From Deltaproteobacteria bacterium (GTDB lineage Bacteria; Desulfobacterota; B13-G15; RBG-16-54-18), in NCBI GenBank assembly GCA_019308925.1, contig JAFDHG010000005.1, positions 1-52,237 on the forward strand: a DNA stretch of 52,237 nucleotides, read 5' to 3'. Positions 1 to 10,396 of the stretch are shown piece by piece. The notes under the pieces are model-generated. The model ran no database searches. It worked only from the letters and a program-made list of their open reading frames with translations, and was not told where the DNA came from. The position numbers and the translations under genes are program-made. The stretch's first letter is position 1. Every line of letters begins with the position of its first letter.

Positions 1-18
1 TCGTAATACCCTCTTCAT
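1..18 (-). CDS. N-terminal stub of a gene running off the left edge
   Basis: Only six codons (MKRVLR) are visible on the minus strand. They are preceded by a good Shine-Dalgarno sequence (GGAGG, positions 31 to 27) with 8 bases before the ATG. A basic start of this kind fits many proteins, including secreted ones, so no function can be given. The support is only the ribosome site and its spacing. It could be a chance match. Confidence 0.4.
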
Positions 19-19
19 C

Positions 20-80
20 AGCGGCCCCTCCTTTCAAAAGTTTTTAACAAAATAAAATTGTTACCATTTTAGGGGCCGCT
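20..80 (-). promoter_or_regulatory. 10-bp inverted repeat partly covering a ribosome binding site
   Basis: AGCGGCCCCT at 20-29 is repeated in perfect inverted form at 71-80, with 41 AT-rich bases between. On the minus transcript the second arm overlaps the last three bases of the GGAGG of the edge gene. A folded RNA could therefore partly mask the ribosome site. It could equally be a protein-binding site. Function is inferred from position only. Confidence 0.35.
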
Positions 81-241
81 ACCCTAAATTTCAACTAACT
101 TTGACACACCCTCTAGTATTTCGAAAGGGCTTAAACACTATAATTCAGTTATGCCTTGCTTTAATCAATCTTCGGATACACCACTCCCCTTTAATTATCA
201 ATCATCTTTTACCAAGCCTTTTAAGGGCGGAATAGCAACTG

Positions 242-406
242 TTAAGCTGCCTTACTAAAAGGCAGACACCTGATCAATAGCCCCCTGAAGTTCCACATCA
301 GGACGCCAATGATGCCCAAAGAGGCGAAGATTTGGGGCATCACTCGGCAAATGCCAGTACAGCCGCCAGTCGCTCCTCCTGTTGTTACGCTAATCGGTGC
401 ACACAT
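242..406 (-). CDS. 54-residue Gly/Cys-containing putative membrane peptide
   Basis: This small gene lies 55 bases downstream of the FmdE-family gene on the same strand. An unusually strong ribosome site, GGAGGTGGAGGA, sits directly before its ATG. The product begins MCAPISVTTGG and has Cys at 2, 16, 20 and 47. The GGCTGIC segment gives a CxxxC pair. Residues about 26 to 45 form a hydrophobic stretch (IFASLGIIGVLMW) that could cross the membrane once. No family is recognised. The tandem arrangement suggests co-transcription with the FmdE-like protein, perhaps as a metal- or thiol-binding membrane partner, but that is inference. Confidence 0.6.
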   Translation of the reverse strand: MCAPISVTTGGATGGCTGICRVMPQIFASLGIIGVLMWNFRGLLIRCLPFSKAA

Positions 407-461
407 CTTCCTCCACCTCCTTTCTTATTGAGGCCCTTCAACAGCCTCTTTTTTTACTGTC

Positions 462-1691
462 CTAAGGCCTTGGCATAATGCCAAGCTCGACCAGAGGATT
501 TACTCCAGCAGCCTTGAGTTTTTCAATTTCAGCAGGGCTCTTAACCTCAAACTTTTTTATAGTTGAAACCAAAGCCTCTGGTCTATCCAGGTAGTCCATC
601 ATCCACACATCCATCTTTAGCCTCATCCACCACCATCTATAGGTGTCAAATGCCCTTAAGTCCGTCCTCTTTGTTCCGCTTCCTTTGAATGCCTTATCCC
701 AGTCAAATGCCACGACCAATCCCTCCCCCTTTTTCGCTCCTCTCTTCCATCTAATGACAATATTGGCCACATTCTTTGCCTCTTTGGGAAGTCTCTTCTT
801 TTGCTCCTTGGTTAGCCATTTTACAAACAGCCTCTTATGCCCAACATTGGTCTCAAAGATTTGTATCAGGGCATCGTCCTTGCACCAGGGAGGAATTGCA
901 ATGACGGTATATTCATGCCTGGGAGCTGAGGAGGGAAGGTTCTTTTTCAGGTATTCGGCTATTAGATAGCCGCTTGTCAGTCCGGGGCAGATATGGTCGT
1001 GAAGCTCAGCTACCTTGAGAAAGTCATTCGGCAAACCCATAACCCAGAGATTGGCTATGGTAAATAGGCTGAATTCGTTTCCACCAAATACCCTGGCAAT
1101 CATCTTCTTCTGCCATGATTCTGGGCTGCTGAGCAGCCTATCGGCATCGATATTCTCTTTGGCAATTTTGGCGAAGATTTCCTTGTCCTTTAGTTTCATG
1201 AAATCCCTTAAAGCGGCAACTCTTCCCCTCTTCTCCCTGTCCAGATAAATTTTGAGGACATCGCTTTTGGCTTCAAGGTAGATACAATCTTTGCTTGTTT
1301 TGTGGAAAAAGGCGAACCATAACGGGACATTATATGGTTTATGCACATTTACTAGATTTCCTTTGCCCCGAGAAGTGCCAGTAGTCATCATCACTCCATC
1401 AAGGGCTTTTTCCGTGGTATATTTACCAATTTTGGCTATATACCCAGCATCTGTGAAGACCAGAACGTTAGGATCACCTTTACTAAAAGGTAATTTTTTC
1501 ATCGCCACGGCTGAGGCTTTAAACCCCAGTAGATGCAGCACCGATAAATTCTTTTCCCCAACGAAGTCGACAACAGGCTTTAAGTCTGGATAATCATTAA
1601 CTATCGATTTCTGTGCCAGGGCAACCATAGCGAAAACAGTGCTTAACAGCATTACCAAACCCAGCATAATTGCGATTCTTTTTCTTTTCAT
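462..1691 (-). CDS. Exported FmdE-family protein
   Basis: The first 27 residues form a classical signal peptide: basic MKRKR, a hydrophobic core, then a VALAQ cleavage region. The protein is therefore probably periplasmic or outward-facing. Around residue 235 the segment HDHICPGL matches the conserved Cys/His metal-site motif of FmdE-type proteins, named after a subunit E gene near formylmethanofuran dehydrogenase. Many bacterial members are standalone and uncharacterised. The roughly 200 residues before this domain are unfamiliar. The ATG has a good SD (GGAGGTAGCT). A sigma-70-like promoter lies about 155 bases upstream, and a small Cys-containing gene follows. Substrate and reaction are unknown. 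The family call rests on the motif and the overall pattern. Confidence 0.8.
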   Translation of the reverse strand: MKRKRIAIMLGLVMLLSTVFAMVALAQKSIVNDYPDLKPVVDFVGEKNLSVLHLLGFKASAVAMKKLPFSKGDPNVLVFTDAGYIAKIGKYTTEKALDGVMMTTGTSRGKGNLVNVHKPYNVPLWFAFFHKTSKDCIYLEAKSDVLKIYLDREKRGRVAALRDFMKLKDKEIFAKIAKENIDADRLLSSPESWQKKMIARVFGGNEFSLFTIANLWVMGLPNDFLKVAELHDHICPGLTSGYLIAEYLKKNLPSSAPRHEYTVIAIPPWCKDDALIQIFETNVGHKRLFVKWLTKEQKKRLPKEAKNVANIVIRWKRGAKKGEGLVVAFDWDKAFKGSGTKRTDLRAFDTYRWWWMRLKMDVWMMDYLDRPEALVSTIKKFEVKSPAEIEKLKAAGVNPLVELGIMPRP

Positions 1692-1766
1692 AGCTACCTC
1701 CTTATCAGAATCAGTTAAGACCCTTAAACAAAAAGACCACTTTGGCCCCCTGCTTCTGCAGGTTCT

Positions 1767-1783
1767 AAGGCCTTCGTGGCCTT
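1767..1783. promoter_or_regulatory. Hairpin in the long leader of the FmdE-family gene
   Basis: AAGGCC (1767-1772) and GGCCTT (1778-1783) form a perfect 6-bp stem. On the plus strand a T-rich tract follows, but no plus-strand gene precedes it. The hairpin more likely belongs to the roughly 155-base 5' leader of the minus-strand FmdE-family gene. That leader also holds a CCTGC/GCAGG hairpin and a weak GGCCA/TGGTC stem followed by TTTTTG. Attenuation is possible but unproven. Confidence 0.3.
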
Positions 1784-1852
1784 TATTTTTATTGAAAAAC
1801 TGCTCCTAAAATCTAGTTATAGATCCTTCATGGACCCTGGTTTTCATTTTCG

Positions 1853-1881
1853 CTTATACAACACCACCTCCTTTTTGTCAA
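1853..1881 (-). promoter_or_regulatory. Sigma-70-type promoter of the FmdE-family gene
   Basis: On the minus strand TTGACA (1881-1876) is followed after exactly 17 bases by TATAAG (1858-1853). It faces the FmdE-family gene and would give a leader of about 155 bases. Confidence 0.6.
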
Positions 1882-1924
1882 CCCCCTTCTTAGCATGCCA
1901 GGTTTATCAAATGGGCTCCGGACA

Positions 1925-1953
1925 TTGACAAAGGACAGGGGGCGTGATATCTA
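1925..1953 (+). promoter_or_regulatory. Promoter of nadK, apparently leaderless
   Basis: TTGACA (1925-1930), 17 bases, TATCTA (1948-1953). The last base of the -10 box lies 7 bases before the A of the nadK ATG. Transcription should therefore begin at or next to the start codon. This agrees with the lack of any recognisable Shine-Dalgarno sequence there. Confidence 0.6.
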
Positions 1954-1959
1954 AAGGTC

Positions 1960-2826
1960 ATGGAGCGGATAGGAATTATAGCCAAAAGAAACAAACCTGA
2001 GGCCTTTAAGGTAGTCAAAGACCTGATCGAATGGTCAAAAGACAAGCGGGTAGAGTGCTTCATCGATCCTGAGATGGCGAAATTCATCCGCCACCCCTCG
2101 CTGGACAAAGAACAGATGCCCCTATCCGTGGACATGGTGGTGGTCTTGGGAGGGGATGGAACCCTGCTGGCTGCAGCCCGCACGATCCAGAAGAGGCGAG
2201 TTCCCATCCTCGGGGTAAACCTCGGGGGATTGGGGTTTTTAACCGCGATCACCTTGGACGAACTCTACCCCATGTTGGACAACATTCTGCGGGGTGATTA
2301 TAAAAGCGATGAACGTATGCTCCTAAAGGCCCGCATCTGGCGCAAAGAGAAGGTGATTGATGAGTTCACCGTCCTTAACGATGTAGTCATCAATAAGGGG
2401 GCCTTGGCCCGAATCATAGAATTGGAGACCAGTGTAGATCACGAATATCTTACCACCTTCCGAGCCGATGGCCTGATCATCTCTACACCCACCGGTTCTA
2501 CCGGGCATTCGCTGTCAGCCGGCGGCCCCATCGTCTACCCCTCCCTCCAATGCATCATCATCACCCCTATTTGCCCTCACACCCTGACCAACAGGCCCAT
2601 CATCGTCCCGGAGGAGGCCACCATCAGGGTAACCCTCTGCTCCAAGGGAGAGGAGGTCTTCCTCACCCTGGATGGTCAGGTGGGGTTCAAGATGGAGGTA
2701 AATGACAGGGTGGAGGTAAAGAAGGAGGAGGAGTTCATCACCCTCATCAAGTCCCCTTCCAAGGGCTATTTCGAAGTCCTGCGGACCAAGTTGATGTGGG
2801 GAGGGGATATCGTATCCAATCGTTAA
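1960..2826 (+). CDS. nadK: NAD kinase (ATP/polyphosphate)
   Basis: Phosphorylates NAD+ to NADP+ in the cytoplasm. The signature GGDGT is at residues 64-68 (LGGDGTLLAAA), followed by the NLGGLGFL segment. A TGST-x-x-SLSAGGP nucleotide-binding motif lies near residue 180. In the last motif GH replaces the more usual AY, a small deviation. At 288 residues it is of normal bacterial length. The ATG has no Shine-Dalgarno, but a promoter ends 7 bases upstream. The stop is followed 13 bases later by recN, and nadK-recN pairing is common in bacteria, so the two are probably co-transcribed. Confidence 0.93.
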   Translation: MERIGIIAKRNKPEAFKVVKDLIEWSKDKRVECFIDPEMAKFIRHPSLDKEQMPLSVDMVVVLGGDGTLLAAARTIQKRRVPILGVNLGGLGFLTAITLDELYPMLDNILRGDYKSDERMLLKARIWRKEKVIDEFTVLNDVVINKGALARIIELETSVDHEYLTTFRADGLIISTPTGSTGHSLSAGGPIVYPSLQCIIITPICPHTLTNRPIIVPEEATIRVTLCSKGEEVFLTLDGQVGFKMEVNDRVEVKKEEEFITLIKSPSKGYFEVLRTKLMWGGDIVSNR

Positions 2827-2839
2827 GGGAGGCGGTGAG

Positions 2840-4549
2840 ATGTTGGTGGAGCTGCACATCGAAAATCTCGCCATCATCGATCAGCTGCGCATCGACTTCA
2901 AGGAAGGCCTGAACATCCTCACCGGGGAGACCGGAGCGGGCAAGTCCATCATCCTCAATGCCCTCAACCTCATCTTGGGGGATAGGGTCAAGGATGACGT
3001 CATCAGATCTCACGAACAAGAAGGCCTGGTGGAGGCCCTCTTTGACATCTCCGTCAACCCTAAGATCCGTCAATGGCTGCGGGAGAAAGGTATAGAGGCG
3101 GAGGACAACCTCGTGATAAAGAGGATGCTGTTCAAGAAGGACAAAAGCAAAATTTATATCAACGGCCAACTCGCCACCCTGCAGATGGCCTCTCTTATCG
3201 GTGAGGAGCTCCTGAACATCTACGGCCAGCATCAACACCAGGTCCTGAGAAGGGTGGAAAACCACCTGGATATCTTGGATGAGTTCGGGGGGCTCCTTGT
3301 GCTGCGGTCCGAATTCCAGAGGGCGTACAGGGAGATCAAAGGGCTGGATAAACGCCTTCGGGAGCTGAGGGCACAGCAAGAAAGGGGGGAAAGGGAGAGG
3401 GAATTGTGGGCCTTTCAAGCCAAGGAGATCGAGGGCGCCACCTTAAGGCCAGGGGAAGAGGAGGAATTGAAAAGGGAGCGGCACCTCCTGAAAAACGCCC
3501 AAAGGTTGATTCAGCTGGCAGAGGCGTGTGAGCGAATATTGTACTCCGATGAGGAGTCTGTTGTAGAAAGATTGGGCAAGGTCGAAAAAGATCTGGAGAC
3601 CCTCACTGAGCTAGACCCCTCCCTCTCTCCCCTCAAAGGGATCATCTCCTCTGCCCTGCTACAACTGGAGGAGGCGTCAGGGGAGCTCAAAGGGTATATT
3701 AGTAAGATCGATCTGGACCCGAACCGCCTGGAGGAGACAGAATTGAGGTTCGAGCAGATTCAAAGCCTGAAGAGGAAGTATAAAGCCTCCTCGGTGGAGG
3801 AAATCCTCTCCTATAAGGATCAGATCGAACGAGGATTGCAGGGAACCGCCGATCTGGAAGCGGAGATAGCGCAACTGGAGAGAAAGAAGAAGGAAGGCGA
3901 GGGGGAGGCCCGGGAATTGGCCCAAAAGCTGTCTGTGGGGCGCAAGGAAGCGGCGCGCCAGTTAAAGAAGGAGATTGAGGCTGAGCTGGCCACCTTGGAG
4001 ATGAAGAGGACGACCTTTGAGGTGGAGATGAAGGAGGTGTCCTCGGTGGGAGATTCTTTAGTGATGGAAGGGGCGGTCATCGGACCTAGGGGAGGGGAGG
4101 AAATAGAGTTTCTCATCTCCCCCAATATAGGGGAGGAACCCCGGCCCTTGTCTAAGATCGCCTCAGGTGGAGAACTGTCTCGTATCATGTTGGCCATAAA
4201 GAAGATATTGACCAAGGAGGGAGAGGACCAGACCTTGGTCTTCGATGAGGTGGATGCAGGGATAGGGGGGGAGACTGCGGAGGTGGTGGGTAGCAAGTTG
4301 CGGGAGCTGGCCCGCTATCATCAGATCCTCTGTGTGACCCATCTGCCCCAGATCGCCTCCTTCGGCCAGGTCCATTACCGGGTGATCAAAAGGGAGATAG
4401 AGGGGAGGACAATTACCTCTGTGGAGAGGCTCCAGGGTGAGATGGTGGTGGAGGAGGTCGCCAGGATGTTAGGCGGGAAGGGAATCACCTCTACTACACG
4501 GTCCCATGCACATGAGATGTTGCAAAAGGCGAGGAGGGAGGAAAGTTGA
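2840..4549 (+). CDS. recN: DNA repair protein RecN
   Basis: An SMC-like ATPase for double-strand break repair that tethers DNA. The Walker A motif GETGAGKS is at residues 29-36. A long charged coiled-coil region (about 150-360) follows. The ABC signature ASGGELSRIMLA and Walker B LVFDEVDAGIGG lie near residues 430-475. At 569 residues it has the usual length. The ATG follows the SD GGAGGCGGTGAG. It lies between nadK and an acetyltransferase gene whose start overlaps the recN stop by four bases, indicating translational coupling. Confidence 0.95.
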   Translation: MLVELHIENLAIIDQLRIDFKEGLNILTGETGAGKSIILNALNLILGDRVKDDVIRSHEQEGLVEALFDISVNPKIRQWLREKGIEAEDNLVIKRMLFKKDKSKIYINGQLATLQMASLIGEELLNIYGQHQHQVLRRVENHLDILDEFGGLLVLRSEFQRAYREIKGLDKRLRELRAQQERGERERELWAFQAKEIEGATLRPGEEEELKRERHLLKNAQRLIQLAEACERILYSDEESVVERLGKVEKDLETLTELDPSLSPLKGIISSALLQLEEASGELKGYISKIDLDPNRLEETELRFEQIQSLKRKYKASSVEEILSYKDQIERGLQGTADLEAEIAQLERKKKEGEGEARELAQKLSVGRKEAARQLKKEIEAELATLEMKRTTFEVEMKEVSSVGDSLVMEGAVIGPRGGEEIEFLISPNIGEEPRPLSKIASGGELSRIMLAIKKILTKEGEDQTLVFDEVDAGIGGETAEVVGSKLRELARYHQILCVTHLPQIASFGQVHYRVIKREIEGRTITSVERLQGEMVVEEVARMLGGKGITSTTRSHAHEMLQKARREES

Positions 4550-4998
4550 TCCGCAAGGCCAAGATCTCTGATGCCGAAGAGGTCCAAAGGTTGATAAATC
4601 ACTTCGCCAAGGAGGGAAAGCTTCTCCCTCGCTCTCTGAGTGAGATCTATGATAACCTGCGCGACTTCTACATCTTTGAGGGGGAAGACCATCACATAGG
4701 GGGTGTGTGCGCCTTGCATATCTGCTGGGAGGACCTGGCGGAGATTCGCTCTCTTGCCGTGGCGGAGGAGGCGAGGGAAAGGGGTATAGGGGGAAAATTG
4801 GTCAAGGCATGTCTCGAGGAGGCGAGGCAACTTGGTGTCTCACGGGTCTTTCTCCTCACCTATATCCCCCCTTATTTCGAACGGGCCGGCTTCCAGGTGG
4901 TGGACAAATCCACCCTGCCTCATAAGATCTGGGCTGATTGTATCAGGTGTGTCAAGTTCCCCAACTGCGACGAGATCGCAATGATCCTCAATCTTTAG
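4546..4998 (+). CDS. GNAT acetyltransferase, N-acetylglutamate synthase-like
   Basis: A 150-residue single-domain GNAT protein. Motif A is visible in the segment SLAVAEEARERGIGGKL near residues 70-85, an acetyl-CoA-binding loop. The C-terminal KIWADCIRCVKFPNC is characteristic of the short ArgA-type acetyltransferases that make N-acetylglutamate, the first step of arginine synthesis. It starts at TTG, overlapping the recN stop, with SD GGAGGGAGG just upstream. The stop overlaps the convergent acyl-CoA synthetase gene by 4 bases. Whether it truly acetylates glutamate cannot be shown here; another small substrate is possible. Confidence 0.8.
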   Translation: MIRKAKISDAEEVQRLINHFAKEGKLLPRSLSEIYDNLRDFYIFEGEDHHIGGVCALHICWEDLAEIRSLAVAEEARERGIGGKLVKACLEEARQLGVSRVFLLTYIPPYFERAGFQVVDKSTLPHKIWADCIRCVKFPNCDEIAMILNL

Positions 4999-6689
4999 GC
5001 AGGAAGCCCCAACTCCCATGCCTTCAGCACCCTCCTGATCACCGTCCCTTCCTCTGATCTGGGGATCTCGGGGCGAAACTCTATCTCCTTGGGAACTATA
5101 CGAGGGGAGAAGTACTTCTTCATGAACTCTATTATCTCCTCCTTTAGTCCTTCGGAGGGAGAAAAACCTGGGTTCAGTGAGATAAAGGCCTTGATCACAC
5201 TCCCCTTTAAAGGGTCGGGTTTGCCGATGACCCCGGCATCGGCCACCGCCGGGTGCCCCTGCAGGGCTTCCTCCACCTCGGGGGGGCCCACCATCACTCC
5301 GGCCACCTTGATCAGGTCATCGTCCCTCCCCTGAAAGTAGAAATAACCGTCCTCATCCACATAGGCAGTATCCCCAGAGATATACCAGAGTTCAAAGGGG
5401 AAATATTCCCGATACCTCTTCTCGTCCCGCCAGATCCCCCTCATCATGGCCGGCCACCCCTCCTTTATGGCCAGCTCCCCTAAAGTCAGGGGGGGGGCTT
5501 CCTTTCCCTGAGGATTGATCACGCTTGCCGCAATACCGGGCAAGGGCTTCCCGATGGAACCTGGCTTAACCGGCATACTGGGGTAGTTGGCGATCATGAT
5601 CATTCCCGTCTCGGTCATCCACCAGGTGTCATGAATAGGGATTCCAAAGACCCTCCTGGCCCAATAGACGACATCCGGGGGCAAGGGTTCCCCCACACTG
5701 AGGATATGCCGCAGGCTGCGTAGATTACACCTATTTATTATTTCCTTTTCCTTCTTCATCAGCCTCCGGAAGACGGTGGGGGCGGTGTACAAGACCGTTA
5801 CCCGATGGGACTCAATCGAACGGCACCAAGCTTCTAGCTCAAACCTCCCCCCCCGGACAAAGTTGTCCACACCACAGAGCCAGGGGGCAAAGGCCCCATA
5901 TACCGTCCCTGTAATCCAACCTGGTTCCGCAGTGGTCCAAAGGACATCGTCATCCCTGAGATCCAGCACCCATCGGGCCGTGATCAGGTACCCGACCATG
6001 TCTTTATGGACGTGGAGGACCCCCTTGGGATTCCCGGTGGAGCCGGAGGTGTAGATCAGGTAGAGGGGGTCTTCCAGGTCCACCCATTCTATATCGAAGT
6101 CATAGGGGGCGCAGGACATCTCCTCCTCCCAACTCACCTCACCAGGCCTAAGCACGATGTTCCCTGCCCCCACCAGGATGATGTGTTGAAGGTCTGGTAG
6201 TTCGCTGAAGGGTACCCGGGCAGCCATTTTGGGGGTGGTCACCAGTACCTTGGCCCCGCTGTCCCTCAATCTCTCCCTGACTGCCACCTCCATTAAGGCC
6301 TCAAATAGGGGTCCGAAGATGGCACCGACCTTGGCACAACCGACCATGGCGATGTAATACTCGGGACAGCGAGGGAGAAATATGAAGACCCTGTCCCCCT
6401 TCTCCACCCCCAGCTTATTGAGGACGTTGGCGAATTTATTGGAGAGGTCCCTCATCTGATGGTATGTTATCCTCTCCCTCCTGTTCTTATCCTCATAGAT
6501 CAGACAGAACCTGTGACTGCGGGCTGGATCATCCGCATGTCGATCGATGGCCTCATAGGCGATATTTACCTTTTTAGTACGGTGCCAACTGAACTCCTGC
6601 TCCACCTCCTTCCAGTCGAAGGATTGATATACCTCGCTGTAATCCTGTAGATTGGCCTCCGGGTTAGCAGGGGGGAGAATGTTTTCCAT
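4995..6689 (-). CDS. AcsA-like acyl/acetyl-CoA synthetase lacking the C-terminal catalytic lysine
   Basis: An ANL-superfamily AMP-forming synthetase, most like Bacillus-type AcsA. The adenylation motifs are present: YTSGSTGNPKG, DTWWMTETG and GRDDDLIKVAGVMVGPPEVE. The C-terminal A10 motif normally reads [11 protein letters not shown], and its lysine completes the adenylate-forming reaction. Here it reads PRSEEGTVIRR: the codon at 5043-5045 (minus strand) is ACG, giving Thr about 15 residues from the end. The enzyme may be impaired in adenylation, work only in thioesterification, or be a regulator. A TTG (6695) and two ATGs (6692, 6689) are possible starts after SD GGAGG; 6689 has the best spacing. 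It heads away from acuC in an apparent three-gene operon. Confidence 0.85.
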   Translation of the reverse strand: MENILPPANPEANLQDYSEVYQSFDWKEVEQEFSWHRTKKVNIAYEAIDRHADDPARSHRFCLIYEDKNRRERITYHQMRDLSNKFANVLNKLGVEKGDRVFIFLPRCPEYYIAMVGCAKVGAIFGPLFEALMEVAVRERLRDSGAKVLVTTPKMAARVPFSELPDLQHIILVGAGNIVLRPGEVSWEEEMSCAPYDFDIEWVDLEDPLYLIYTSGSTGNPKGVLHVHKDMVGYLITARWVLDLRDDDVLWTTAEPGWITGTVYGAFAPWLCGVDNFVRGGRFELEAWCRSIESHRVTVLYTAPTVFRRLMKKEKEIINRCNLRSLRHILSVGEPLPPDVVYWARRVFGIPIHDTWWMTETGMIMIANYPSMPVKPGSIGKPLPGIAASVINPQGKEAPPLTLGELAIKEGWPAMMRGIWRDEKRYREYFPFELWYISGDTAYVDEDGYFYFQGRDDDLIKVAGVMVGPPEVEEALQGHPAVADAGVIGKPDPLKGSVIKAFISLNPGFSPSEGLKEEIIEFMKKYFSPRIVPKEIEFRPEIPRSEEGTVIRRVLKAWELGLPA

Positions 6690-6706
6690 CATCAACCTCC
6701 TAGAAA

Positions 6707-7006
6707 TTAAATGGGGCCATGCATGGGATCAAAGTATCCCTCTCCCGTCTCCACCTTTTCTCCCTCTTCGACCTCATAGATGGGGTATACCTCGTACTTG
6801 GACAAGCCTGAGAGCTCCGCCATCAACTTCGCCACCTCCTCGGCCTCCTCGGCCTCGATGATGGTGAAAGTAAGATCCCCGCTCAGGGTGACATATTGAT
6901 GTAGTACCCGTACGCCCAGGGGCGGATGGCTGAATACCCTCCCCGCCTTCTCCTTGATCTCCTTCCAACTCCGCATCTCATGTTCCCCAAGGATCAATAA
7001 AAGCAT
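6707..7006 (-). CDS. Small alpha/beta (DUF3303- or ACT-like) protein in the acuC operon
   Basis: A 99-residue protein beginning MLLLILGEHEM. It alternates beta and alpha segments in the manner of dimeric alpha/beta-barrel (DUF3303-like) or ACT folds. The most telling part is DLTFTIIEAEEAEEVAKLM, about residues 43-62. The ATG at 7006 has AGGAGGG 8 bases upstream; a longer upstream start would overlap acuC further and lacks support. It sits between acuC and the AcsA-like gene, the place where Bacillus has the CBS/ACT protein AcuB. A regulatory or ligand-sensing role is plausible but not shown. Confidence 0.65.
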   Translation of the reverse strand: MLLLILGEHEMRSWKEIKEKAGRVFSHPPLGVRVLHQYVTLSGDLTFTIIEAEEAEEVAKLMAELSGLSKYEVYPIYEVEEGEKVETGEGYFDPMHGPI

Positions 7007-7023
7007 CTCTCCACCCTCCTGGC

Positions 7024-8073
7024 CTAAAGATTCCAATAACGACTTTGAACCCCCTTGACCCGCTGAATGGCCTCGGCTATCTCCTCGTATTGGGCCTCTT
7101 CCACCTGCTGCATCTCCCCCTTATTGATCATTGAACTGTCGGTCAGTTCCCAAAGGACCATCTCCACCGAGTCCCGCAGGGCCTGGGGGTTGTATCCCCC
7201 CTCCAAAATGATGACCAGCCTCCCCTCACAAAGGTCAGCGGCCATCTCCATCAGAAGGGCGGTCATCCTGGCAAAACCTTCTGTGGTGACATTCATCGAT
7301 CTAATAGGATCGCTATAATGAATGTCGAACCCAGCGGCCACTAATAGTAACTCCGGTCTATACTGTCGGGCAATGGGCGAAAGGAGGTGGCGGAAGACAT
7401 TGCCGTAACACGCGTCAGAACAACCGGCCTCCAGGGGGATATTTACAGTGTAACCCTCACCTTCCCCCTCTCCCACCTCTTGTACCCCTCCACCCCAGGG
7501 ATAAAACGGGTGGCGGTGAACGGAAAAATAGAGGACATGGGGATCCTCATAGAAGATGTGCTGGATGCCATTGCCGTGGTGGAGGTCCCAGTCGACGATC
7601 AACACCTTCTCCAATCCGTGAGCCTTCAAGGCATACTTCGCTGCGATGGCCTCGTTGTTAAATATACAGAACCCCATGGCCCGATCCCTCTCAGCGTGAT
7701 GGCCTGGGGGCCTGATAAGGGCAAAGGCATTGCGTACTTCTCCCGTCAAAACACCTCTGACAGCCTCCATCACCCCCCCTGCTGCTAACCAGGCAGCCTT
7801 GTATGTCTTGGGTGAGGTTACCGTGTCAGGGTCAAACCTGACCTGGGCCTTCTCCGCACTGTCCAATATACGGTCCACATAACGGGAGTCGTGGACCCAG
7901 AGGAGTTCCTCCAATGTCGCATATCGGGGCTCAATATTCACCAGTGTATCACCAAAGTCCTTATTATCTAACATATTATAAATAGACTGAAGCCGCTGCG
8001 GACTCTCTGGGTGCAAGATCCCCGTTCTGTGCTCCAGATAAAGACGATGCCTCACGATCCCTGTCTTTTCCAC
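7024..8073 (-). CDS. acuC: AcuC-type class I histone-deacetylase-fold lysine deacetylase
   Basis: A zinc-dependent deacetylase of 349 residues. Visible catalytic elements include RPPGHHAERD (the paired His), VDWDLHHGNG (Asp/His zinc ligands and relay), AAGFDIHYSDP and LEGGYNP. In Bacillus, AcuC removes acetyl groups from the C-terminal lysine of AcsA and so reactivates it. The operon here holds an AcsA-like protein without that lysine, while the next gene cluster has an Acs with it, which is a likelier target. The start is GTG at 8073 with a weak SD. A TTGACA-17-TAAAAT promoter lies 45 bases upstream. An acetylpolyamine or other acyl-lysine substrate remains possible. Confidence 0.88.
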   Translation of the reverse strand: MEKTGIVRHRLYLEHRTGILHPESPQRLQSIYNMLDNKDFGDTLVNIEPRYATLEELLWVHDSRYVDRILDSAEKAQVRFDPDTVTSPKTYKAAWLAAGGVMEAVRGVLTGEVRNAFALIRPPGHHAERDRAMGFCIFNNEAIAAKYALKAHGLEKVLIVDWDLHHGNGIQHIFYEDPHVLYFSVHRHPFYPWGGGVQEVGEGEGEGYTVNIPLEAGCSDACYGNVFRHLLSPIARQYRPELLLVAAGFDIHYSDPIRSMNVTTEGFARMTALLMEMAADLCEGRLVIILEGGYNPQALRDSVEMVLWELTDSSMINKGEMQQVEEAQYEEIAEAIQRVKGVQSRYWNL

Positions 8074-8117
8074 GATTGAGATAAATCACCACAAAAAATA
8101 TGACATTTCTTGTTTAT

Positions 8118-8146
8118 ATTTTAATCTTTCTGCGATGCTTTGTCAA
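8118..8146 (-). promoter_or_regulatory. Promoter of the acuC operon
   Basis: On the minus strand TTGACA (8146-8141), 17 bases, TAAAAT (8123-8118). The predicted leader to the acuC GTG is about 38 bases. Confidence 0.65.
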
Positions 8147-8382
8147 CTGAAAGAAAGACCCTGTACCTGGGACACGGCAAGAACTCACTTTGGGATTGGG
8201 ATGAGGGGATGACACCTTAATGAGAAGCTAGAGTCCTTAAGTATCTTCGGGTTTCCCTGTTTTTCTCTTAGAGACCGCCTTTGGAGAAACAGGATCAGTT
8301 ATGCCCTGTTTGGCTAGAGGAGGTGGCAAAGGTTTCTTTGCCACGTGTCAAGAAAGATTCTATGATTTAAAAGGAGGAAGAA
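8147..8382. other. Intergenic region between acuC and acs
   Basis: No gene is supported here. The only clear structure is an imperfect inverted repeat, CCTGTTTTTCTC near 8258 against GAGAAACAGG near 8284. It may be a weak hairpin, but no adjacent gene end makes its role obvious. Confidence 0.4.
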
Positions 8383-8404
8383 GGAGGGGGTTGAAACCCC
8401 CTCC
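8383..8404 (-). terminator. Rho-independent terminator of acs
   Basis: GGAGGGGG (8383-8390) and CCCCCTCC (8397-8404) form a perfect 8-bp GC-rich stem with a 6-base loop. On the minus strand it is followed by TTCTTCCTCCTTTT. It begins 16 bases after the acs stop. Confidence 0.8.
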
Positions 8405-8419
8405 ACGGTTATTGCATTC

Positions 8420-10396
8420 TTACTTCCTTCCTGCGACGAGGTTATCGACCACTGAGGGGTCAGCCAGGGTAGAGGTATCGCCCAGCTCATCAATGGCGCC
8501 CTCGGCAATCTTGCGCAGGATTCGCCTCATGATCTTTCCGCTCCGTGTCTTGGGCAGACCGTCGGCAAACTGAAGCTTGTCGGGTGTGGCTATCGGTCCA
8601 ATGATCGTCCTCACATGGGTACGGAGTTCCTTGAGGAGGTCATCGCTCTTCTGAACACCGGTTTTCAACGTCACAAAGGCGTAGATACCCTGCCCCTTAA
8701 TCTCATGCGGATAGCCGATGACTGCCGCTTCAGCAACTTTATCATGGGCAACCAGGGCACTCTCGACCTCAGCAGTGCCGATTCTATGCCCTGAGACATT
8801 GATGACGTCGTCGATCCGGCCCAGGAGCCAGTGGTAGCCGTCGACATCGCGCCTGCAACCATCACCGGAGAAGTAGTAGCCCTTGAACATGCTGAAGTAG
8901 GTCTCTCTGAAGCGCTGCTTGTCAGGATCATTCCAGAAACCACGCAGCATCCCCGGCCACGGCCTTGCTATGCACAGGGAACCACCCTCATCGGCTTCAC
9001 ACTCGGAGCCATCTTCTCTGAGGATTTTCGTCTCTACACCGAAGAACGGGAAGGTAGCTGATCCGGGCTTCAGCGGTGTTACGGGCAACGGAGTGATAAG
9101 GAATCCACCGGTCTCGGTCTGCCACCAGGTATCGATGATCGGGCACTTTTCCTTTCCTACATTTTTGTAGTACCAGATCCATGCCTCGGGGTTGATGGGC
9201 TCGCCCACGGAGCCGAGGATCTTGAGAGAGGACATATCTCTCTTTTTCGTCCATTCCTCCCCCTCTCTCATCAGGGCCCGTATGGCGGTAGGTGCGGTGT
9301 AGAACTGGGTGACCTTCCACCGCTCAACGATTTCCCAGAACCTGTCGGGTTCGGGGTAGGTCGGAACACTCTCGAATTCCAGGCTGGTCGTACCCAAGGC
9401 GAGCGGTCCATAGACGATGTAGCTGTGCCCGGTGACCCATCCGATGTCAGCGGTACAGTACCATACGTCTTCTTCCTTGATGTCGAAACAATACTTAAGG
9501 GTTGACACGCAGTAAAGAAGATATCCTGCTGTCGTGTGGACGACCCCTTTCGGCTTGCCCGTGCTTCCACTGGTGTACAGAATAAAAAGCACATCCTCAG
9601 CATCCATCTGCTCGGGTTCGCAGACAGGAGTGATGTCATCTTTTGCCATTTCCTCGTGCCACCACACATCTCTGCCTTCCTTCATGGGCACATCGATCCC
9701 CATCCGGTTGACAACTATTGCCGTCTCCACCATGGGGCATTCTTCCATGGCCTTATCGGCGCTGGCCTTGCTGTTGACGGTCTTACCACTTCTCCAGTAG
9801 CCGTCACATGTAATGAGGACCCGTGATTCGCAATCCTGCACCCGGTCCCTCAGGGCCTCGGCACTGAACCCTCCAAACACTACGCTGTGGATAGCGCCGA
9901 TGCGTGCACAGGCCAGCATTGCAATGGGGAGCTCCGGAATCATCGGCAGATAGATGGAGACCCGATCTCCCTTCTTGACCCCATCCTTCTTGAGGACGTT
10001 GGCGAATTTGCAGACCTCTTCGTAGAGTTCCTTGTAGGTATAGGTCTTGCTGTCATCCAAGGGTTCACCCTGAAAAATGAGAGCGACTTTGTCACCACGC
10101 TTCTCGAGGTGTCGATCGAGACAGTTATAGGCAATGTTGAGTTTCCCTCCCTTGAACCACTGAATGTCCAACGTATCGAAACTCCATTCCCAGACCTTAT
10201 CCCACTTCTTGTACCAGTCGAGCATTTCCGCCTGCTCCGCCCAGAACCCCTCCGGATCGTCAAGGGACCGTTGGTACATCTTTTTGTACTCATCCATGCT
10301 CTTGATATACGCCCGGTCAACAATCCCTTTAGGCGGAGGAAATACACGTGTTTCCTCCAACATCGTTTTCATTCCTTTGCTCTTTTCTTCCGCCAT
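8420..10396 (-). CDS. acs: Acetyl-CoA synthetase (AMP-forming)
   Basis: Converts acetate, ATP and CoA to acetyl-CoA. The 658-residue protein has the usual Acs length. It shows the N-terminal Acs domain ([20 protein letters not shown]), [26 protein letters not shown] and [31 protein letters not shown] near residue 621 carries the intact catalytic and acetylatable lysine. The start is ATG 10396 with GGAGG 8 bases upstream. It has its own promoter (TTGACA-17-TATCTT) and a strong terminator, so it is a single-gene unit between acuC and an OFA transporter. It is a plausible AcuC target. Confidence 0.95.

Follow-up and report, generated by a model that had tools for sequence, protein, structure and literature searches.

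What does a 54-residue ORF encode that lies 55 bases downstream of the ORF for an FmdE-family protein, and with which neighbour does its product belong? The window analysed here, 52,237 nucleotides of a deltaproteobacterial genome (G000), carries both genes near its left end (Table 1). An initial annotation, made from the letters of the window, took the short ORF for a gene with one of the strongest ribosome sites present, and took its product for a small membrane partner of the FmdE protein, serving metal or thiol chemistry.

Table 1. Coordinates of the features discussed; positions are those of the window unless a contig is named.
Feature	Position	Strand	Remarks
End of insertion-sequence-like repeat	1..113	.	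Breaks the operon; ends the contig
Start of radical SAM/SPASM gene	114..138	(-)	About 8 codons, GTG start, VFKPFRNT...; cut off by the insertion element
Remainder of enzyme gene	G000:C16:31796-32620	(-)	Outside the window
Small membrane peptide gene	242..406	(-)	54 aa, ATG ORF; translation MCAPISVTTGGATGGCTGICRVMPQIFASLGIIGVLMWNFRGLLIRCLPFSKAA
Strong ribosome-binding site of peptide gene	407..422	(-)	AAAGGAGGTGGAGGAAG
Exported tandem FmdE-family protein	462..1691	(-)	409 aa; Pfam PF02663

The peptide gene and its family

The ORF is a real small membrane-peptide gene, because it combines the strongest ribosome site tested in the window with purifying selection and membership in a family. The site pairs with the anti-SD sequence at a duplex energy of -16.6 kcal/mol. 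None of the 32 long-ORF gene proxies in the window attains this strength (the best proxy reaches -15.0), and equal pairing occurs at 2 of 1731 ATGs on both strands, a count that includes the ORF's own; the site was rightly singled out. The encoded peptide consists of a conserved N-terminal segment, MCAPISVTTGGATGGCTGIC, then one hydrophobic span, then a basic tail, and so agrees with the single span described at the outset. The CxxxC motif described with it is formed by C16 and C20; a third cysteine, C2, lies near the N-terminus outside the motif. The peptide matched no family in Pfam or NCBIfam.

Searching with the 54-aa sequence identified a paralogue in the window's own genome (contig C33; 52% over 44 aa) as well as relatives in further genomes. 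Across 395 genomes from the window's phylum, a peptide profile located nine places in seven genomes (E<1e-18; next match E=1.5e-3). A pattern scan of 84,980 species returned seven peptide loci: four in genomes already seen (L038, L039, L042, L044), and three in Dehalococcoidia (L040, L041, L043). Altogether the family comprises 12 genes in 10 genomes of anaerobic bacteria from two phyla. Several weak matches were dropped: L010 (G055, E 0.005), which has an internal stop and looks unlike the family by eye; and those in G294, G236, G331, G131, G013, and G078 (E 1e-3 to 1e-2), excluded on the score gap alone. Neither the peptide nor a peptide-radical SAM-FmdE operon was found in the open-licence PMC literature, which is not proof that they are unpublished.

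The family consensus is MC[AV]P[IV][ST]VxTxGxxxGC, mostly continued by GxC, with one hydrophobic span and a basic tail to follow. Conservation in the 12-copy alignment is concentrated in the N-terminal Cys segment: every copy has M1, C2, P4, V7, T9, G11, G15, C16, G18, and I26; C20 is retained in 11 of the 12. For four close peptide pairs, dN/dS is about 0.15, 0.11, 0.22, and 0.14, rough values from some 50 codons each with few changes. A purine-rich ribosome site precedes the peptide at 11 of 12 loci or their duplicates, by a pattern that missed the G192 copy; ribosome sites of the L040, L041, and L043 copies were left out of scoring. In nine peptide sequences, three to six Lys/Arg residues follow the hydrophobic stretch, and zero to two precede it. 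Because the positive charge lies after the span, the N-terminus is predicted to face outside.

The copy without C20 is L043:1671-1841, from Dehalococcoidia UBA2777. It keeps C2 and C16 and has lost the GxC cysteine (GCLVGGNHGI); the adjoining frame for a membrane protein, described below, is also short. This variant may reflect decay or a sequencing error.

The constant neighbour, a radical SAM/SPASM enzyme

The constant partner of the peptide is a radical SAM/SPASM enzyme, not FmdE. In 9 of the 12 loci (G003, G007, G031, G141 twice, G192, L040, L041, and L043) the next gene downstream of the peptide encodes an enzyme of 280-287 aa, or of 300 aa in G031 if an upstream start is used. Three copies remain: that in the window, split from its enzyme by an insertion; that in G163, at a contig edge; and the orphan paralogue on G000:C33, flanked by genes for a TPR and a DUF4198-like protein. 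The G000 genome does encode the enzyme at another place.

The initial annotation stopped short of this gene. The enzyme was hidden because an insertion-sequence-like element splits it and places the remainder on another contig; with the operon broken over contigs C5 and C16, only half of it was in view. The window retains the enzyme start, VFKPFRNT, which matches the start of the G003 enzyme. On C16 the remainder abuts the opposite end of an element of this kind, and the eight bases aaatacta recur at that junction. Genes for a 190-aa membrane protein and for a TonB-receptor-like protein lie downstream of it, matching G003. The repeat at the window's left end has four full or near-full matches and one partial match elsewhere in the genome, some of them at contig starts. 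It is insertion-sequence-like, probably of the IS256 type, to judge from aaatacta flanking it on either side as a direct repeat and from a C-terminus that by eye resembles a transposase. Judged from the two contigs, and not from a read spanning the gap between them, the enzyme gene is probably interrupted here; a near-complete enzyme could still arise from an in-frame ATG within the element end.

The Pfam scan of the G003 enzyme lists Radical_SAM (43.7 bits; cut-off 29.5) and SPASM (40 bits, E=4.9e-10; cut-off 21.5) alone. The enzyme carries a CxxxCxxC motif, and residues C18, C22, C25, C220, C238, C276, and C279 are invariant in all nine sequences. An enzyme profile found seven members above 470 bits in six of the phylum's 395 genomes (next best, 143 bits), and three above 517 bits in three of 343 Dehalococcoidia-class genomes (next best, 118 bits). 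Since this profile was built from nine of the same peptide loci, their high scores are unsurprising; what matters is that the search brought up no member lacking a peptide. All ten members in these 738 genomes adjoin a peptide gene, nine directly and one across the insertion element. Conversely, six of the seven peptide genomes in the 395-genome search have the enzyme, and the seventh has its peptide copy at a contig end. The peptide belongs with the enzyme because every subfamily member found lies beside it, and because distant FmdE loci, treated below, do without it.

The subfamily stands apart from its relatives. Its best NCBIfam matches are metalloenzyme maturase families, far below cut-off. 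The nearest is TIGR04317, a tungsten-enzyme maturase, with 121.5, 111.7, and 117 bits for three enzymes (cut-off 380); TIGR04311 (rSAM_Geo_metal) gives 79 bits for the G003 enzyme (cut-off 400). The enzyme falls under the cut-off of every named NCBIfam family compared, so its chemistry is not readable from homology. The NCBIfam comparison also gave a weak similarity to two enzymes of tetrapyrrole chemistry, AhbD and NirJ. Solved relatives, all distant, include MoaA, PqqE, BtrN, and anSME. An enzyme tree was set aside: most inner branches were unsupported, and the intended outgroup row, taken as the longest ORF at its locus, proved to lie in a wrong frame.

In both G141 copies the peptide stop codon and the enzyme start codon overlap by 4 nt. 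Such an overlap, like the shortness of the ORF and its very strong ribosome site, would suit a regulatory leader, whose translation controls the downstream genes and whose product is inert. That interpretation is highly improbable: the amino-acid sequence is kept over two phyla with low dN/dS, the C33 copy is an orphan, and no Rfam element was found in positions 1-9000 of the window or in any of the 12 related loci searched.

The FmdE protein and the metal setting

The larger gene was correctly assigned to the FmdE family: its product scores 66.2 bits against the Pfam model (E=4.1e-18; cut-off 22.9). It is presumably exported, judging by eye from a signal-like hydrophobic stretch at its start. 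The C-terminal FmdE domain (residues 230-342 in Pfam) contains H231, H233, C235, and C270, invariant in five of five FmdE sequences. In an AF2 model of moderate quality (pLDDT 74.7, pTM 0.70), residues 31-226 superpose on FmdE structures (2gvi, Z 14.2; 2glz, Z 13.3); a sequence profile matches 2glz at residues 227-291; and fold searches ranked FmdE structures first. Thus the protein resembles 2glz, 2gvi, and 3d00 in fold and metal ligands, and differs from them in its predicted export and in having two FmdE-like domains per chain, of which the N-terminal one is a degenerate FmdE fold. According to the available text of PMC2954224, the Desulfitobacterium FmdE protein has ligands His15, His17, Cys19, and Cys55 and held Zn/Ni, and most PF02663 genes adjoin metal-ion transporter genes. 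This ligand set, HxHxC plus a later Cys, is present in the core FmdE domain here, and we read H231, H233, C235, and C270 as the probable counterparts of the four ligands given in that text.

How closely do FmdE and the peptide travel together? The FmdE profile made 20 matches in 19 of the 395 genomes. Four reach at least 497 bits, and all four lie beside a peptide gene, so that the short ORF is conserved next to every close homologue of this FmdE protein in the 395 genomes; in the Dehalococcoidia loci L040 and L041 the FmdE proteins likewise adjoin the peptide. The other 16 matches (106-271 bits, 15 genomes) have no peptide. A role as small membrane partner of FmdE, with outward cysteines passing metal to or from that protein and the enzyme incidental, would agree with this adjacency, which spans two phyla and involves an FmdE protein that keeps its ligands and is predicted to be exported. 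It is nevertheless improbable: half of the 12 peptide loci show no FmdE neighbour, although some of these are short contigs, and the more distant tandem-FmdE loci manage without the peptide. Of the original proposal, then, the membrane-peptide gene stands and FmdE as its main partner does not; metal or thiol chemistry is plausible, with the enzyme as the partner to name.

FmdE itself belongs to a wider receptor-linked group in the phylum, because TonB-receptor barrels occur near the distant, peptide-less FmdE genes. Such a barrel lies within about 1.5 kb of 9 of these 16 genes (L071-L073, L075, L076, L078-L081). At the other seven loci the ORF listing contains no barrel; Pfam was applied to nine barrel-like proteins and one ATPase only.

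The 190-aa membrane protein next to the enzyme is confined to one kind of locus. Its profile was found in 4 of 355 genomes, exactly those with a close FmdE protein. An AF2 model (pLDDT 74.4) resembles ECF S-components (5edl, Z 15.3; ThiT, 12.5; FolT, 12.4; NikM, 10.6), but chains of particulate methane monooxygenase (pMMO/AMO) also score 12-13, which calls for caution, and the Foldseek E-value is only 0.019. No Pfam family matched at E<=0.01, NCBIfam gave a weak sub-cut-off YniD match only, and neither collection gave an ECF_trnsprt, CbiM, or NikM match; no ECF T or A gene was recognised beside it in the loci read. On the strength of the model, a protein with a predicted S-component-like fold completes the FmdE-type operon.

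Two layouts can be distinguished. The FmdE-type (the window plus C16, G003, G007, G031, L040, and L041) has the order FmdE, a TPR protein in Dehalococcoidia, peptide, enzyme, and S-like protein. L043 shares it on a contig that stops short of any FmdE gene, with a short S-like frame. The S-like gene is followed in G003 and G000 by one for a TonB receptor, and in G007 by genes for a CooC-like ATPase and an ECF_trnsprt protein; a gene for a Fur-family regulator lies upstream of FmdE in L040 (E 4.8e-30). The TPR-type (G141 twice, G163, G192, and the orphan C33 locus) places a TPR protein, peptide, and enzyme amid TonB receptors, FeoA, FeoB, and DUF4198 proteins. FeoA and FeoB occur in the G141 neighbourhood; in G192 the TPR gene comes after the enzyme; and the receptor labels in G141, G163, and G192 are presumptive. 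Since the S-like gene does not occur in TPR-type loci, the link to transport does not hold throughout.

Together these neighbourhoods point to metal uptake, most often of iron, as far as gene content can tell. The absence of a known riboswitch from the loci searched leaves the metal without an RNA-based clue.

Several side observations concern the same surroundings. CooC/MinD-like ATPase genes adjoin the S-like gene in G007 (L012:2-1158, contig C155) and a distant FmdE gene in G045 (L077:499-1284), hints of nickel as an alternative metal. The G141:C38 peptide locus encodes, by a triple FeoA protein, a Nitro_FeMo-Co domain protein with a Cys-rich tail (L030:6427-6912). The orphan peptide lies in a larger cluster (L014, G000:C33:1-20000) with ExbB/ExbD/TonB-like genes, a TonB receptor, DUF4198 proteins, a TPR protein, a NapH-like polyferredoxin, a BcrAD ATPase with its HGD-D partner, the haem-degrading radical SAM enzyme HutW (534 bits; cut-off 400), DUF454, and a Peripla_BP_2 protein. 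It is a candidate anaerobic haem or metallo-cofactor uptake system. The ExbB/ExbD/TonB, CcdA-like, flavodoxin-like, and lipoprotein-box labels are our presumptive assignments.

A peptide and its putative maturase

What, then, might the enzyme do to the peptide? We give about equal weight, for and against, to the reading that the two form a precursor-maturase pair, and that the modified, membrane-anchored peptide handles metal in an uptake system. Modification by the enzyme is suggested because mycofactocin was recognised, according to PMC3023750, from the same kind of co-occurrence between a strictly conserved short peptide and a single SPASM enzyme. The pair is further favoured by the overlapping frames in G141, the invariant cysteines of the enzyme, the conserved Cys segment of the peptide with positive charge beyond its span, the FmdE ligands, and the uptake genes nearby. 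A role in handling metals is probable because the peptide lies beside its own radical enzyme in metal-uptake-like clusters.

For this pair we infer modification, bond type, topology, metal, and direct contact among the parts along the following lines. The peptide would be the dedicated substrate of the enzyme encoded beside it. In the cytoplasm its N-terminal Cys segment (MCxPxxVxTxGxxxGCxGxC) would be modified, and a Cys-centred cross-link is the most plausible outcome. The product would then be anchored by its single helix, N-terminus outside and basic tail inside, and the modified segment would bind or pass on metal on the outer side of the inner membrane. The likeliest metal is iron, with nickel/cobalt or a metal complex as alternatives. 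Likely partners in the FmdE-type operon would be the exported FmdE metal-binding protein, the S-component-like membrane protein, and, where an outer membrane exists, a TonB-dependent receptor. Dehalococcoidia are not known to have an outer membrane.

The kind of system, a peptide with a radical SAM maturase, is already known; the peptide family and its unusual layout are new here. As with MftA/MftC (mycofactocin) and PqqA/PqqE (PQQ), a short conserved peptide has a SPASM radical SAM enzyme of its own encoded alongside. Unlike in those systems, the conserved part is N-terminal, with three cysteines followed by a membrane-spanning helix, and the setting is metal uptake rather than nicotinoproteins or PQQ enzymes; no sequence relation was found between this family and the MftA/PqqA peptides. 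Sactipeptides and ranthipeptides, whose Cys thioether bonds are installed by SPASM radical SAM enzymes, share with the present family a Cys-containing peptide beside such an enzyme. They differ in that a membrane anchor is present here, no adjacent protease or exporter was seen by eye, and the known maturase families match the enzyme weakly, far below cut-off. Thioether bonds in this family are a guess.

Some features count against the precursor-maturase reading: C20 is lost in L043; the C33 copy has no subfamily enzyme nearby; the S-like gene is confined to one layout; the enzyme reaches no named family's cut-off; modified-peptide precursors do not usually carry a hydrophobic anchor towards the C-terminus; and the Pfam scan of the enzyme lists no leader-binding domain. 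In the main rival the peptide would serve the uptake system as a small membrane subunit without modification, like CbiN/NikN in ECF metal importers, and the enzyme would produce a small molecule (metal ligand, tetrapyrrole, or cofactor) for the same system. The uptake-type neighbourhood, the S-component-like fold of the adjoining membrane protein, HutW in the C33 cluster, and the weak similarity to AhbD and NirJ are all consistent with this possibility. Yet it is with the enzyme, rather than with the S-like protein, that the peptide co-occurs, and a structural role would not need so strict a Cys/Gly/Thr segment at the N-terminus. We consider the unmodified subunit possible, though on the unlikely side.

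If the precursor-maturase reading is true, the pair would add a new peptide-maturase family to the radical SAM systems, one whose modified product remains in the membrane for metal uptake, unlike secreted antibiotics or diffusible redox cofactors. FmdE proteins, widespread and with no known job, would gain a setting as exported metal binders beside TonB receptors, and a subgroup of them would also be set beside a peptide-modifying enzyme. The case would illustrate once more that standard gene callers may miss the substrate of such an enzyme because it is so short; no public annotation of these peptides came to light.

The NikM and CbiM proteins of ECF metal importers carry an N-terminal metal site, on a His-bearing N-terminus. 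Like these importers, which come with NikN/CbiN or NikK/NikL, the FmdE-type operon includes a membrane protein with a predicted S-component-like fold; unlike NikM/CbiM, its peptide carries Cys in place of such an N-terminus. Metal importers can be accompanied by additional small membrane proteins and proteins of the DUF4198 type, as the available text of PMC2667541 describes, and BtuM is an S-like protein able to act alone, according to that of PMC6072759. A bolder picture has the outward peptide tip and the six-helix S-like protein mimicking the NikM metal site. It would fit the FmdE-type operon only, because TPR-type loci have no S-like gene. That the outward N-terminal segment, as an enzyme-made metal ligand, forms the capturing tip of an S-component-type importer working with exported FmdE is a rather unlikely reading. 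Should it be right, deep-sediment anaerobes of two phyla would possess a ribosomally made, radical-modified metal receptor for nutrient uptake.
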